The notes under the pieces were generated by a model, which saw nothing but the letters and a program-made list of their open reading frames with translations, ran no database searches and was not told the DNA's origin. A program made the translations under genes and the position numbers. 38,348 nt of DNA from Candidatus Zixiibacteriota bacterium (GTDB taxonomy: Bacteria; Zixibacteria; MSB-5A5; UBA10806). Location of the stretch: the NCBI GenBank assembly GCA_024641335.1, contig JAHEDG010000006.1, forward strand, positions 1 to 38,348, given 5' to 3'. Of this stretch, positions 16,762-24,965 are shown piece after piece; the first letter of the stretch is position 1, and every line of letters begins with the position of its first letter.

Positions 16762-17697
16762 TTATTCGAACAGGCTTGAAAGTGATTTCTCCTCGTGAAT
16801 CTTGTTAATCGCTTCGGCAAATATCTCCGATACCGTAAGAACCTCGACCTTGGGGCTTAAGTTCTCCGGCTTCTGAAATATCGTGTCGGAAACATAAATC
16901 TTCTCGATAGGAGAATCATCGATTCTCTTTATAGCCTCCCCCGATAAAACGGCGTGAGTACAGGCCGCCACGATCCGGTTGGCTCCTTTCGCCTTAAGAG
17001 CGACCGCCGCCTTGGTGAGAGTCCCGGCCGTATCTACCAAATCGTCACGGATCACCACGTCCCGGCCGTCGACCTCGCCGATAATATTCATAACCTCAGC
17101 CTGGTTTATATCCGGACGGCGCTTATCCACAATACTAAGGCTGAAATTCAGGGCTTTGGCGAACGCCCTGACCAGTTTTACCGAGCCGACATCAGGCGAT
17201 ACCGCCACACCGTTCTTAAAATTCAACTTACGCAAATAAGCGTTGAATACCTTCGATGAGTAAAGGTGGTCCGACGGACAGTCGAAAAAACCCTGTATCT
17301 GCGACGCGTGCAGGTCCATCAGAACGACCCTATCCACTCCGGCGTTGGTAATAAGATTGGCCACTAATTTGGCCGCGATGGCTACCCGCGGCTGATCCTT
17401 GCGGTCCTGACGGGCATAACCGTAATACGGAATAACCGCGGTGATTCTTCGGGCTGACGCTCTCCGGCAGGCGTCAACCATAATGAACAGCTCCATCAGG
17501 TTGGACGCCGGGGTATTGGTGGACTGGATAATGAAAACATCCATCCCCCTGATATTTTCGTCGATCTGAAAAAATATCTCGCCGTCGGAAAATCTCTTCA
17601 ATGTACAATTGGATACCGGCTTGCCGAGCCTGGCGGCAATCTTTTCGGACAGCGGCCAATTGGAACTTCCCGAAAACAGTTTGAGATCGTTAACCAT
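16762..17697 (-). CDS. prs: Ribose-phosphate pyrophosphokinase
   Basis: Prs makes PRPP from ribose 5-phosphate and ATP for nucleotide, His and Trp synthesis. ATG 17697 gives 311 residues, the usual family length, and begins LKLFSGSSN. An upstream frame adding 15 residues runs towards the tRNA gene and has no homology support. Visible motifs are RFSDGEIFFQIDENIRG, the ATP-binding YYGYARQDRKD, the metal/PRPP-site histidine in MDLHASQIQGFF, VSPDVGSVK and the PRPP loop RDDLVDTAGTL. In that loop Arg and Ala stand where VDDMIDTGGT is common. It lies between tRNA-Gln and rplY on one strand and is most likely co-transcribed with both. PRPP made by this enzyme is a substrate of PyrE, encoded 6 kb away. 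Confidence 0.96.
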   Translation of the reverse strand: MVNDLKLFSGSSNWPLSEKIAARLGKPVSNCTLKRFSDGEIFFQIDENIRGMDVFIIQSTNTPASNLMELFIMVDACRRASARRITAVIPYYGYARQDRKDQPRVAIAAKLVANLITNAGVDRVVLMDLHASQIQGFFDCPSDHLYSSKVFNAYLRKLNFKNGVAVSPDVGSVKLVRAFAKALNFSLSIVDKRRPDINQAEVMNIIGEVDGRDVVIRDDLVDTAGTLTKAAVALKAKGANRIVAACTHAVLSGEAIKRIDDSPIEKIYVSDTIFQKPENLSPKVEVLTVSEIFAEAINKIHEEKSLSSLFE

Positions 17698-17759
17698 CAA
17701 ATACCCCGTTTCAGTTTCGCCGGTCTCCCCGAAGACCACCAATTACAAAATCATCAAAA

Positions 17760-17831
17760 CTGGGGCGCCAGGATTCGAACCTGGGAATGCCAGCTCCAAA
17801 GGCTGGTGACTTACCGCTTGTCGACGCCCCA
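17760..17831 (-). tRNA. tRNA-Gln (anticodon TTG)
   Basis: The 72-base minus-strand sequence folds as a cloverleaf. It has a 7-bp acceptor stem TGGGGCG/CGCCCCA, a short D arm with the GCGGTAAG loop, the anticodon stem CCAGC/GCTGG with loop CTTTGGA, and the T arm CCAGG-TTCGAAT-CCTGG. The U1-A72 pair and discriminator G73 are identity elements of glutamine tRNA and agree with anticodon UUG. The CCA end is not encoded. It is the first element before prs. Confidence 0.95.
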
Positions 17832-21023: not shown

Positions 21024-23093
21024 ATGACCTTCTTAAATTCGGCTTTCCTGTTTGCCCTCTCCGCTATGTCCATACCGCTTATTATTCATTTTCTCTCCAG
21101 ACGGCGTATTAAGATCGTGGAATTTTCGTCATTGAGGTTCCTCGAGCAAATGCAAAAAAGCCGCATGAAATGGTTGAAAATAAAAGAGCTTCTGCTTCTG
21201 CTTTTACGGATGCTCATCATCGGTCTTATCGTGATGGCCTTTGCCCGTCCGACATTGAGCGGATTTTTAGGCTCGTCAAAGGCCGCCTCGTCGGTGGTAA
21301 TTATCCTCGATCGTTCCGCCTCAATGGATGCCGAAGGAGAAACCGGTAGCATATTCGACGAGGCCAAACGTCTGGCCATGCGTTTGATAGACAGCCTCGA
21401 ACCGAACGATATGGTCACCATATTGGCGTATCCGGAAAGCGGATCATCCCTGACTTTCGGTCCGGTCAATCCTGGTCCGTCGATCAAGGAGCGGTTGAGC
21501 GATATCGAATTGTCTTATCAATCAGGGAATATCGGCCAGTCGCTGAAAACCGGTCTGGAAATATTGAGCAAAAGCCCTGATCTCAATCGGGAAATTTACA
21601 TTTTCTCCGATATGCAGCAGACCGGCTGGAAAAATCTGCCGCCGGAAGTATTAACCGGAGAAACATGGAAAAATATCCACCTGTTCGGCATGATCCCCCC
21701 TCCTGCGGGCGCCGACAATATCGGAATTACAAATATCCTGATGCCGCCCCAGCTGCTGGTTCCCGGTGAGAATTTCGGCCTTGAGGTTCGTTTGGCCAAC
21801 TACGGCAAAGGAACATTGGAAAACCTGCTGGTCGGAGTGGTGGTCGACGGTGAACGCAAAGCGCAAACCTCCGCGACGCTAAGCCCCGGTCAACCGGCCG
21901 AATTGAGGTTCGCTTTCAAGATAGATTCCTCCGGCGATCATGACGGTTACGTGGAGATAGATTATGACCGTTATGGATTGGATAACAGAAGGTACTTCAG
22001 TCTGCATATCCCTGGCAGAATTAAAATCCTGGCTGTGGGACAAACTGAAAACGACCTGAAGCTTTTGGCCCTGGCGCTCGACCGAAGAGAGGCGGGTCAG
22101 ATTAATTATAAAGGGATCGGAGCCGCCGGTCTTCTGCGTGAGAATCTCGAAGATTACGATGTTTTGCTTCTTTCCGATATAAGATCGCTGGATCAGGCCC
22201 GCGATGCGGCCGTTAAGAGATATCTCGACAACGGAGGACGTCTTTTCGTCTCCCTGGGAAAACAATCCGACGATCAATACTGGGATCGTTTCCTCGTAGA
22301 AACAGCCGGGATTAACGTGGGAAAAGCCGAAGGAGGATCGGGGCAGTATATTGTCTGGGATGGTTTCGATTACGAGCATCCGATCTTCAATGTCTATTCT
22401 TCCGATAAAAACGACCGTTCCCGACCGGCGATTCCCCAAATACAACTCGGCTGGTACAGGAATATCGGCGGCGGAATAACTCTCGGCTCGAGCGCCGACG
22501 GCGCCGGTCTGCTGGTCGAATCGACCAAAAAACCGGTTATTGTCTATTCCAGCGGATTCGATTTTTATTCCGGCGATCTTCCGGCTCATTCCTTTTATCT
22601 ACCGTTCCTGGTAAGGAGTATCGAATATCTCGGCTCCCGCGACGCCGATATCGACCTTAATGGAATCGTAGGCGAGCAGTTCCAATGGAAACTCAAACAA
22701 AATATCAACGGCGATATTGTTCTCGTCTCCCCGTCCGGCGGAGTGGAGAATCTGTTCACGGTTAATACTTCCATCGGTTACGCCGTCAGATTGGCCGAGT
22801 ACGGCCCTCCCGGAATCTATTCTCTCGAATCAGGCAATAGCAAACTCGGCCTCATTGCGTTCAATGTCGATCCGGTCGAATCCGAACCGGAGACTATCTC
22901 TCCTGATAACATCACCGCCGCCCTGGGAGCGAAATTCAAGGCTATCGATCCCGATTCCGATCTTGGGATCGTTGTCAAGGAAGCCCGATTCGGTCGGGAG
23001 CTCTGGAAGGAATTCCTGATATTGGCCTTGATTCTCCTGATATTGGAATCGATTCTCGGAAAAACATCCCCACCGGCAAAGGCAGAAGGCTAA
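21024..23093 (+). CDS. BatA-like membrane protein with VWA domain
   Basis: The 689-residue protein begins with the BatA N-terminal domain: a first helix FLFALSAMSIPLIIHFLSRRR, then FSSLRFLEQMQKSRMKWLKIKELLLLLLR and a second helix ending AFARPTL. A von Willebrand A domain follows (about 90-270) with the MIDAS motif LDRSASMD. Residues about 325-430 resemble a class I glutamine amidotransferase-like fold (LAVGQTENDLKLLALAL, YDVLLLSDI, YLDNGGRLFVSLG). The C-terminus has one more membrane helix (EFLILALILLILESI). In Bacteroides, bat genes are linked to aerotolerance; here no MoxR ATPase is adjacent. It starts 17 bases after the TPR gene and ends 2 bases before the next start, so all are probably one operon. 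Confidence 0.88.
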   Translation: MTFLNSAFLFALSAMSIPLIIHFLSRRRIKIVEFSSLRFLEQMQKSRMKWLKIKELLLLLLRMLIIGLIVMAFARPTLSGFLGSSKAASSVVIILDRSASMDAEGETGSIFDEAKRLAMRLIDSLEPNDMVTILAYPESGSSLTFGPVNPGPSIKERLSDIELSYQSGNIGQSLKTGLEILSKSPDLNREIYIFSDMQQTGWKNLPPEVLTGETWKNIHLFGMIPPPAGADNIGITNILMPPQLLVPGENFGLEVRLANYGKGTLENLLVGVVVDGERKAQTSATLSPGQPAELRFAFKIDSSGDHDGYVEIDYDRYGLDNRRYFSLHIPGRIKILAVGQTENDLKLLALALDRREAGQINYKGIGAAGLLRENLEDYDVLLLSDIRSLDQARDAAVKRYLDNGGRLFVSLGKQSDDQYWDRFLVETAGINVGKAEGGSGQYIVWDGFDYEHPIFNVYSSDKNDRSRPAIPQIQLGWYRNIGGGITLGSSADGAGLLVESTKKPVIVYSSGFDFYSGDLPAHSFYLPFLVRSIEYLGSRDADIDLNGIVGEQFQWKLKQNINGDIVLVSPSGGVENLFTVNTSIGYAVRLAEYGPPGIYSLESGNSKLGLIAFNVDPVESEPETISPDNITAALGAKFKAIDPDSDLGIVVKEARFGRELWKEFLILALILLILESILGKTSPPAKAEG

Positions 23094-23095
23094 TA

Positions 23096-23458
23096 ATGAA
23101 AACCGCAGCCGCCGTGATCGTTATTTTGGTTTCATCTCTTTCCTGCGGAGGCTCCGCCCGAATTGTCAATATGACCAGGCCGGGAGGGTACGCCCTCGGT
23201 GAGCGAATCCAACTGATTTTCGCTATTGAAAATTCAAACCGGGCCCCGGACTCGATCAGGGTGAATGTCATGGAACAGAAAAACAAATATGTTTATGAAA
23301 TCTGGGCGCCCAAAGACGCGGATCGCTATTCGGTCGCGTGGGACGGCCGCAAACCTGACGGAAGCTGGCCCGCCGGAGGACGGTACCTGGTGTACGCCTT
23401 TATCGATTCAGGGAAAATCGCCCGCTCCGATACTGTTGAATTCGGGTTGACCGATTGA
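23096..23458 (+). CDS. Small lipoprotein with FlgD-like Ig fold
   Basis: The 120-residue protein has a short hydrophobic signal ending in the lipobox SLSC (Cys17). The mature part is one beta-sandwich: an early strand GYALGERIQLIFAIEN, then YEIWAPKDADRYSVAWDGRKPDGSWPAGGRYLVYAFI. The pattern WDGRxxDGxxxPxGxYxY is the FlgD Ig-like motif used as a surface or secretion-tail domain in many FCB bacteria. Here it stands alone, not as a tail. It follows the BatA-like gene with a 2-base gap, so it is likely the last gene of the nfo operon. Function is unknown; a periplasmic partner of the BatA-like protein is possible. Confidence 0.8.
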   Translation: MKTAAAVIVILVSSLSCGGSARIVNMTRPGGYALGERIQLIFAIENSNRAPDSIRVNVMEQKNKYVYEIWAPKDADRYSVAWDGRKPDGSWPAGGRYLVYAFIDSGKIARSDTVEFGLTD

Positions 23459-23500
23459 TTGAAAAAAATAAAATTAATCCGATAAACCGCTTGACCTCCT

Positions 23501-23569
23501 ATGAAGCAATATGATAAAAAACCGTTGTCAGCGGCGTTTCGAGGAGGGGGCGCCGTTGATTTTTTGTGA
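23501..23569 (+). CDS. Possible pyrE leader peptide (22 codons)
   Basis: An ATG at 23501 opens 22 codons that run through the hairpin and its T run and stop at 23567-23569, 12 bases before the pyrE ATG. A second frame from ATG 23511 (24 codons) crosses the same hairpin and ends in an ATGA overlap with pyrE. Neither has a Shine-Dalgarno sequence. A promoter TTGAAA (23459-23464)/ATAAAC (23482-23487), 17 bases apart, would start transcription close to 23501. The position is that expected for leader-coupled attenuation, but neither frame is proven to be translated. Confidence 0.3.
   Translation: MKQYDKKPLSAAFRGGGAVDFL
23528..23565 (+). terminator. Terminator-like hairpin just before pyrE (candidate attenuator)
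   Basis: TCAGCGGCG and CGCCGTTGA pair over 9 bp (one G-U), with a 14-base loop, followed directly by TTTTTT. It ends 16 bases before the pyrE ATG. It may end the nfo operon, regulate pyrE, or both. The loop contains AGGAGG, which is complementary to CCTCCT at 23495-23500, so an alternative fold is possible. Confidence 0.7.
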
Positions 23570-23581
23570 TAGGGGTATTTT

Positions 23582-24124
23582 ATGAAAGATAAGAAAAGCC
23601 GTCTGAAAGAAAAACTATTCGAAAAAGCGGTCAGGTTTGGCGATTTCACTCTCGCCTCGGGATTGAAATCGACCTATTATATCAACGGCAAAATGGCCAC
23701 GCTCGATTCCGAGGGGCTTAATATGATTTCCGAGGTTATGCTCGATATGCTTGAAAATACCGAATGTGACGCGGTCGGCGGACCGACCCTCGGCGCCGAT
23801 CCCATGGTCGGAGGCATCATCGCGCTGGCCCATAACCGCGGCCGGAAACTCACCGGCTTTATCGTCAGAAAAGAATCCAAAGACCACGGAACCAAAAATC
23901 TGATCGAGGGCCCCCTCGAACCGGGGATGAAGACTATAGTTATCGAAGACGTGGCCACTACCGGCGGTTCGGCCAAAAAAGCCATTGACGCTGTCAGGGC
24001 GTTCGGCTGCGATGTGGTCGGGGTTCTGGTGATAGTCGATCGCGATCAGGGAGCGAAAGAACTGCTTAACGAAATGGGTATTCCGTTCGAACCAATCTTC
24101 ACCAAAGCCGAGTTAGGGCTATAA
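23582..24124 (+). CDS. pyrE: Orotate phosphoribosyltransferase
   Basis: PyrE joins orotate to PRPP to form orotidine 5'-monophosphate, the fifth step of de novo pyrimidine synthesis. The 180-residue protein has the family start (FTLASGLKSTYYINGKM), the GGPTLGADPMVGGI region, the catalytic-loop lysines in FIVRKESKDHGTKNLIEG and the PRPP-binding loop IVIEDVATTGGSAKKAI. AGGGG lies before ATG 23582. The stem-loop with a T run 16 bases upstream suggests control by attenuation, as pyrE is in enterobacteria, although the exact design differs. No other pyr gene is in the window. Confidence 0.96.
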   Translation: MKDKKSRLKEKLFEKAVRFGDFTLASGLKSTYYINGKMATLDSEGLNMISEVMLDMLENTECDAVGGPTLGADPMVGGIIALAHNRGRKLTGFIVRKESKDHGTKNLIEGPLEPGMKTIVIEDVATTGGSAKKAIDAVRAFGCDVVGVLVIVDRDQGAKELLNEMGIPFEPIFTKAELGL

Positions 24125-24170
24125 ACAGGATGAGCATTCCGGCTTAATACTGCCACAGGCCAGGATCATC

Positions 24171-24965
24171 CTACATAAACGCGAACAGCCGCAAGAAATC
24201 GAAATAATCGACGCACTCATACCGCACCGTCAGCTTGTTCTCCAATCGCGCTCCGGGGTAGAACGAAAGCCTGTATGCCTTTTTGTAATCCTTGAATTCT
24301 ATGGCGATATCGAATTTCGACGGCAGTTTAAATTTGCATTTGGCCAAATCGCCGCTCAATATTCTATCCGCCTCTTCTCTGATCCGTCTGACCGCCAGTG
24401 CCGGATGAATGCTGATCGACGCCGACCCGATGCCCTCGTTGACCGCGACCGTGGCAATACCGGGATTGACCTCCTTCACCTCATCGCATAACCCCTTATC
24501 ACCGGTAACCAAGACCACAGGCACACCCACCGAGGCCGCAGCGTAGGCGTTGATTAGAAATTCCGAGGCATACCGCTCGTTGATTTTCACGCGATAGATC
24601 GACCCGGTAAATGTATGAGCTAACGGATTACTGTCCGATCCCGCGCGGGAGTGATAGCCGGTGAATATGGCGGCATCGAACGATCTATCCAAACCGAAAA
24701 CCATGGAAAACGGATGGCCGCTCCACTCCCTGATCATCTTCACCCTTTCGGGCAAATCCGCGGCTATGATATTCCGCCCCGAATCGTGAGCGTCTTTAAT
24801 ATATATCTCGTCCGCTCCTGCCTCGATGGCCCCTTCGCAAACCGCCCCCACCTCGGCGGTCATCTGTTTTTGAAATTCAGCATAATCCGGTTTATTTTTA
24901 GTAGCCTCGTCAAAATGAACAATCCCGGTGGTCCCCTCGATATCCGCGCTGATAAATATTTTCAA
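24171..24965 (-). CDS. D-aminopeptidase DppA-like (M55 family)
   Basis: M55 peptidases are zinc-dependent D-aminopeptidases that form a decamer; the B. subtilis enzyme acts on D-Ala-D-Ala and related peptides. I chose TTG 24965 because AAGGGGATGG precedes it and the product then begins LKIFISADIEGTTGI, as in DppA (264 aa). Longer frames add a basic stretch without similarity. Metal-site residues are visible: Asp8 and Glu10 in ADIEGT, His in KDAHDSG, His in GYHSRAG and Glu in NERYASEF. The middle (PFSMVFGLD, AAIFTGYHSRAG, NAYAAASVGVPVVLVTGD) follows DppA closely. It lies 35 bases after a GNAT acetyltransferase gene on the same strand. Role in cell-wall peptide use is inferred. Confidence 0.9.
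   Translation of the reverse strand: MKIFISADIEGTTGIVHFDEATKNKPDYAEFQKQMTAEVGAVCEGAIEAGADEIYIKDAHDSGRNIIAADLPERVKMIREWSGHPFSMVFGLDRSFDAAIFTGYHSRAGSDSNPLAHTFTGSIYRVKINERYASEFLINAYAAASVGVPVVLVTGDKGLCDEVKEVNPGIATVAVNEGIGSASISIHPALAVRRIREEADRILSGDLAKCKFKLPSKFDIAIEFKDYKKAYRLSFYPGARLENKLTVRYECVDYFDFLRLFAFM

Follow-up and report, generated by a model that had tools for sequence, protein, structure and literature searches.

The pyrE locus and its upstream region

The window analysed here, the whole stretch of 38,348 nucleotides from a Candidatus Zixiibacteriota bacterium (contig JAHEDG010000006.1), carries the orotate phosphoribosyltransferase gene pyrE, identified by a profile search in which the protein scored 152 bits against a TIGR00336 cut-off of 106.8. 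The reading frame 5' of pyrE (23096-23458) lies on the same strand, ends 68 bases before a terminator-like hairpin and has no Pfam match above cut-off. No second terminator-like site was found by the terminator scan on the + strand between this frame and pyrE. From 5' to 3' the region contains a -35 box, a -10 box, the hairpin, a run of six T's, a ribosome site and the pyrE start codon (ATG at 23582), with the coordinates given in Table 1. About 6 kb from pyrE, at 16762-17742 on the - strand, the window also has a gene for ribose-phosphate diphosphokinase (NF002320, above cut-off), the enzyme that makes the PyrE substrate PRPP, and beside it a tRNA gene (17760-17831, - strand).

Table 1. Features at the pyrE locus, in coordinates of the window
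Feature	Position	Strand	Remarks
-35 box TTGACC	23491..23496	+	most likely pyrE promoter; aligns with CTTGACA of G001 and G003
Probable -10 box TAAAAA	23515..23520	+	18-base spacer; weak, 4 of 6 positions
Terminator-like hairpin	23527..23560	+	arms 23527-23540 and 23547-23560, loop GAGGAG 23541-23546; terminator scan and folding
AGGAGG in hairpin loop	23542..23547	+	common to all four pyrE hairpins
T6 run	23560..23565	+	16 bases separate its end from the pyrE ATG
Probable pyrE ribosome site AGGGG	23571..23575	+	read from the sequence; outside the hairpin
pyrE, orotate phosphoribosyltransferase	23582..24124	+	TIGR00336 above cut-off; PF00156

The terminator scan reports the hairpin as 14 pairs closing a 6-base loop and followed by T's. 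Folded with RNAfold, 23488-23600 reached -34 kcal/mol, whereas shuffled sequences averaged -24.25 (sd 3.26, z -2.99); none of 200 shuffles folded as low. An earlier note on this DNA had described a hairpin with a six-T run shortly before pyrE and had read it as a possible leader-coupled attenuator; the hairpin and its T run are present as described. Release of RNA polymerase at the U-run is the function predicted for such a structure.

Occurrence and conservation of the element

Thirty loci of the class were oriented and compared around pyrE. The genome of the window (G000) is one of nine genomes of its order, eight of which have a PyrE match, and the element lies before pyrE in four of these eight: G000, G001, G003 and G008. 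G001 and G003 belong to the same family, and G008, whose assembly has 9% contamination, to another family of the order. The layout common to all four is a CTTGAC promoter box, a hairpin with an AGGAGG loop, six or seven T's (T6 in G001 and in G003, T7 in G008), a ribosome site and pyrE. All four hairpins have the G+C-rich stem with a T run directly after it that marks intrinsic terminators, and their terminator scores, computed with a formula from the literature, are all positive (20.2, 13.2, 3.8 and 25.9). Conservation in relatives, a check that the earlier note had named, was thus found in three genomes. What sequence and conservation show directly is a promoter box followed by the hairpin with its loop and then by the U-run, in this arrangement.

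The element is absent before pyrE in the other four genomes of the order. In G002 hardly any space separates the upstream frame from pyrE; in G006 a T6 run precedes the gene but the fold is only weak; G007 has nothing like the element. G005 (locus L013) has strong hairpins (-27.2 kcal/mol) at the predicted pyrE RNA start with no T run after them; these lie some 90 bases 5' of the pyrE match and represent a different leader in a sister family. Outside the order, 22 loci of the class were searched over the 130 bases that precede the match, and none had AGGAGG with T5 following within 20 bases.

Identity in the hairpin core is 23/30 between G000 and G001, 24/30 between G000 and G003 and 30/31 between G001 and G003, and exceeds the background at four-fold sites of pyrE (35/72, 30/73 and 49/81) with P of 0.0016, 1.6e-5 and 3.6e-6 in the same order; these values are rough, as sites were treated as independent. 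The stretch from the T run to the ATG is not conserved in the three pairs of these genomes (8/19, 5/16 and 7/16). Over hairpin and T run, G003 differs from G001 at one of 35 positions. When the three sequences were aligned, 27 of 27 cells paired, with one two-sided and two one-sided changes, and the covariation was matched by 169 of 500 shuffles. Covariation alone is weak, and G008 is the stronger point: its stem letters are largely different, while the place, the GAGGAGG loop and the T7 run are kept. The PyrE of G008 is 53% identical to that of the window, and the pyrE four-fold sites of the two genomes are identical at 12 of 47.

Control sequences were used to ask how often such features arise elsewhere. 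Of 62 control terminator-like hairpins, taken from 750,802 bases at other loci, 0 had AGGAGG in or next to the loop, and of 155 control promoter-like sites 0 had a terminator stem within the following 20 nt; the control set excluded the four hairpin loci as well as any locus retrieved by a pattern or model search, and some of its loci may overlap. None of 29 terminators in 400,000 bases of G001 has an AGGAGG loop, and the one among seven in the window is the pyrE hairpin. A pattern of TTGAC, 30-55 bases, AGGAGG, 8-20 bases and T6 had matches in 33 of the 132 genomes of the class. Among genomes with a determined pyrE position, it matched there in G000, G001, G003 and G008. Matches away from pyrE were treated as noise because the same pattern run backward matched in 14 genomes. 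A tighter pattern had a single match in each of G000, G001 and G003, in every case at pyrE, and was absent from G002 and G004.

A covariance model built from three sequences scored its own three at 48.7-56.8 bits, far above the rest, and the G008 pyrE hairpin at 22.9 bits. In the class search 66 of 129 genomes had a hit at E up to 1, with hits elsewhere reaching 30.7 bits; the G008 pyrE hairpin was not among the matches listed, in a search that scored 54 of the 111 candidates of that genome. The model was not used as evidence for G008, since hits elsewhere reach comparable or higher scores.

Predicted RNA start and the leader-peptide reading

Across the class, 19 of 29 loci (one of the 30 was dropped as too short) have, no more than 160 bases from the start of the pyrE match, a TTGAC box that is followed at 16-18 bases by a -10 box; for control windows taken from the same loci the figure is 18 of 1274. 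Two boxes of the window follow this rule, TTGACC at 23447 and TTGACC at 23491. The RNA start was placed from the second, because it aligns with the boxes of G001 and G003 and its distance to the hairpin equals that in G008; both G001 and G003 have TAGAAT at the spacing of the TAAAAA of the window. By the usual distance from the -10 box, the pyrE RNA is predicted to start at about 23525-23528 (near 23527), at the foot of the hairpin. Identity of the span from -35 to -10 is 26/28 between G001 and G003, which is conserved. It is 17/28 between G000 and G003, where the support is weak (P 0.029), and 17/28 between G000 and G001, where conservation is not clear (P 0.14); both P values are rough, with sites treated as independent. 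A consensus scan of 22800-24600 gave one sigma-70-like site, TTGACC at 23447 with a TAAAAT ending at 23474, a number not above that in shuffles (mean 1.8).

In enterobacteria, the pyrBI and pyrE attenuators sense UTP through a translated leader, and the earlier note had transferred this scheme to the window, with a ribosome on a leader frame breaking the hairpin when UTP is scarce. The sequence elements it had pointed to exist: a 22-codon frame from the ATG at 23501 that stops just past the T run, a 24-codon frame from the ATG at 23511 that overlaps the pyrE ATG as ATGA, CCTCCT at 23495-23500 and TTGACC at 23491. The way in which they had been connected fares less well. The promoter proposed at 23459-23487, which the leader-coupled reading needs, shows no excess conservation (14/27, 11/26 and 14/26 in three genome pairs), and the TTGACC at 23491, which had been set aside as a competing promoter, is the box aligned in relatives and most likely the pyrE promoter. 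The predicted start near 23527 lies past both ATGs and so downstream of 23511, the outcome that the note itself had named as refuting its reading. The alternative fold of CCTCCT with AGGAGG also finds little support: G001, G003 and G008 have no CCTCC within the 110 bases that precede pyrE, and in the longer RNA that the note's promoter would give the forced fold reaches -25.6 kcal/mol versus -31.2 for the terminator, 5.6 kcal/mol worse.

The frames themselves have not been kept. The 22-codon frame of G000 and a 23-codon frame of G001 both cross the hairpin and end shortly after the T run, and LSAA occurs in both, which favours a leader. However, the loops of the two genomes differ in length by one base, which shifts the crossing frame, and the G001 frame, too, has its starts ahead of the predicted RNA start. 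In G003 the hairpin is kept, and no frame enters it from upstream: the stretch from TTGAC to the hairpin has no start codon whose frame runs through the hairpin, and one TTG lies inside the loop. Judged by the predicted starts, the one candidate for a frame translated within the RNA up to or across the terminator is in G008 (L012), where an ATG at about the predicted start opens a frame that runs through the terminator into pyrE, in frame. This ATG is a possible leaderless start. A pyrBI-like leader frame was also sought before pyrR in the order and rejected, as frames crossing the terminator occur at 3 of 7 leaders versus 2.56 expected in shuffles; frames of G008 and G005 whose start is no more than 8 nt from the predicted +1 were left out of this count, and a looser count gives 5 of 7. 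At other pyrR leaders of the class crossing frames occur at 7 of 7 versus 5.37 expected (one of eight was dropped for lack of a TTGAC). Crossing frames carry little weight as evidence, since at pyrR leaders of the order they occur at the rate of shuffles. Overall, the attenuator part of the earlier proposal stays plausible because a terminator-like hairpin lies between promoter and pyrE and is conserved in three relatives, while coupling to a translated leader is highly improbable.

The pyrE element as a proposed terminator at the RNA 5' end

The reading that we favour, at about even confidence, is an attenuator that consists of the terminator only, placed at the 5' end of the RNA. RNA would start near 23527 from the TTGACC at 23491 and the -10 box near 23515, and the hairpin would be transcribed first. 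The hairpin and its U-run, about 40 nt in all, would release RNA polymerase before pyrE, unless a factor reading the conserved AGGAGG loop weakened or stabilised the hairpin. The attenuator would then determine the share of initiated transcripts that reach pyrE. We infer the start site, termination, regulation and the role of a trans factor as regulator, the last because no RNA upstream of the hairpin could form an antiterminator. Counting against this reading are the presence of the element in only 4 of 8 order genomes and at 0 of 22 class loci outside the order, the weak -10 box of the window and the promoter span, whose conservation from G000 to G001 is not clear.

The same hairpin might instead be an unregulated terminator with a meaningless loop, stopping read-through from an upstream operon or damping pyrE by a fixed fraction. 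The frame that ends 68 bases before it on the same strand, with no other + strand terminator-like site listed between, is consistent with such a role, as is the near abutment of pyrE to its upstream frame in G002, which has no element. A terminator of this kind would, however, also stop the transcripts of the pyrE promoter, which lies before the hairpin, and it leaves unexplained why AGGAGG is kept in four of four hairpins despite the changed stem of G008 and occurs in none of the control terminators. We consider it rather unlikely. A 5'-end hairpin could also protect the pyrE mRNA from decay or tune its translation, the T run being incidental. The hairpin begins at or a few bases from the predicted RNA end, and the hairpins of G005 at the predicted pyrE 5' end, which have no T run, would fit this role. 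A stability hairpin needs no T's, yet six or seven follow the stem in four of four genomes, and the pyrE ribosome site is outside the hairpin; this explanation is judged unlikely. Start-site switching of the pyrC/pyrD type was considered and rejected, as the hairpin does not include the ribosome site of pyrE.

Among known systems, the terminator-only attenuator resembles rimP-leader in operation. PMC2965389 describes rimP-leader as a conserved terminator without antiterminator before rimP-nusA-infB, for which a protein reader has been proposed. Both have a conserved terminator hairpin and U-run before the gene and no visible antiterminator, and the likeness that no antiterminator is possible holds if RNA starts near 23527, the predicted start. 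The differences lie in the gene and in the conserved part, which here is the AGGAGG loop, the stem signature GGGc...gCCC of rimP being absent; in B. subtilis the rimP leader spans about 180 nt, whereas here RNA is predicted to start at the hairpin. The pyrE element would thus work like rimP-leader but is not a member of it. With the enterobacterial pyrBI and pyrE attenuators it shares a terminator hairpin with T run shortly before a pyrimidine gene; it differs from them in having no conserved translated leader in the predicted RNA, the upstream frame ending well before the hairpin. No pyrE leader of such a kind was found in the literature searched, which mostly did not extend to subscription papers.

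Candidates for the trans factor are RNA-binding proteins, for example CsrA, and a 30S subunit that would read AGGAGG. CsrA is encoded in nine of nine order genomes. As in CsrA/RsmE sites, GGA is placed in the loop of a hairpin, in the window a hexaloop; in the folds of the window and of G001 it is at least partly in that loop. The loop motif given in PMC7652899 is ANGGAN, and its A is missing in all four hairpins, the letter two before GGA being G, C, G and G in G000, G001, G003 and G008, so that a full CsrA site was rejected. Hairpins from CsrA SELEX mostly have at most 4 contiguous pairs, whereas the pyrE hairpins have 9-14.

PyrR is the other candidate. In Bacillus it stabilises its anti-antiterminator, and by analogy PyrR with UMP could bind the pyrE hairpin directly and stabilise it. 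PyrR is above cut-off in 7 of 9 order genomes, including all four that have the element, and in G000 pyrR heads pyrR-pyrB-pyrC. The element shares with the PyrR-binding attenuator (RF00515) a pyrimidine gene and a purine-rich loop with GAG, and its GAGGAG-G resembles the GAGAGG of the ARUCCAGAGAGGYU consensus in PMC7430163. Unlike RF00515, it is a single hairpin with no antiterminator, no UCC arm and no purine bulge. It has no Rfam match even at E 10, and RF00515 in particular gave none at the window hairpin or in L001, L002, L003 and L012 at E up to 10. Searches of 20 pyrR loci at E up to 5 found RF00515 at 0 of 7 loci of the order versus 8 of 13 in other families of the class, none above the gathering score; weak genome-wide hits in the order lie away from pyrR. 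Of T18, H22, R27, R146 and K152, which we take to be the RNA-contacting residues of B. subtilis PyrR, H22 differs in 5 of the 7 proteins from the order versus 0 of 13 others, while T18 and R27 vary outside the order too. These results suggest that RNA control by PyrR has changed in the order. The missing site matches and the drifted residues argue against PyrR at pyrE, a candidate less likely than CsrA or the 30S subunit, and direct binding of the hairpin by PyrR with UMP appears very unlikely.

A broader and distinctly doubtful proposal is that the order lost canonical PyrR-RNA control, and that at pyrE a 5' terminator with a Shine-Dalgarno-like loop is instead read directly by a general RNA binder, either free 30S subunits or CsrA, so that read-through would track translation capacity or carbon status and not UMP via PyrR. 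If it terminates and is regulated, the element would be an attenuator of a pyrimidine gene without leader peptide, riboswitch or recognisable PyrR site, in a group whose PyrR, the usual regulator, apparently no longer has its canonical RNA target. With a length of about 40 nt it would be a very small model for studying the switching of a terminator that has no antiterminator. In genomes of the order a terminator with T6-9 and without a PyrR-site match also lies before pyrR-pyrB-pyrC (G000:C32:10459-16000, 612-791; L075, L076-L081).
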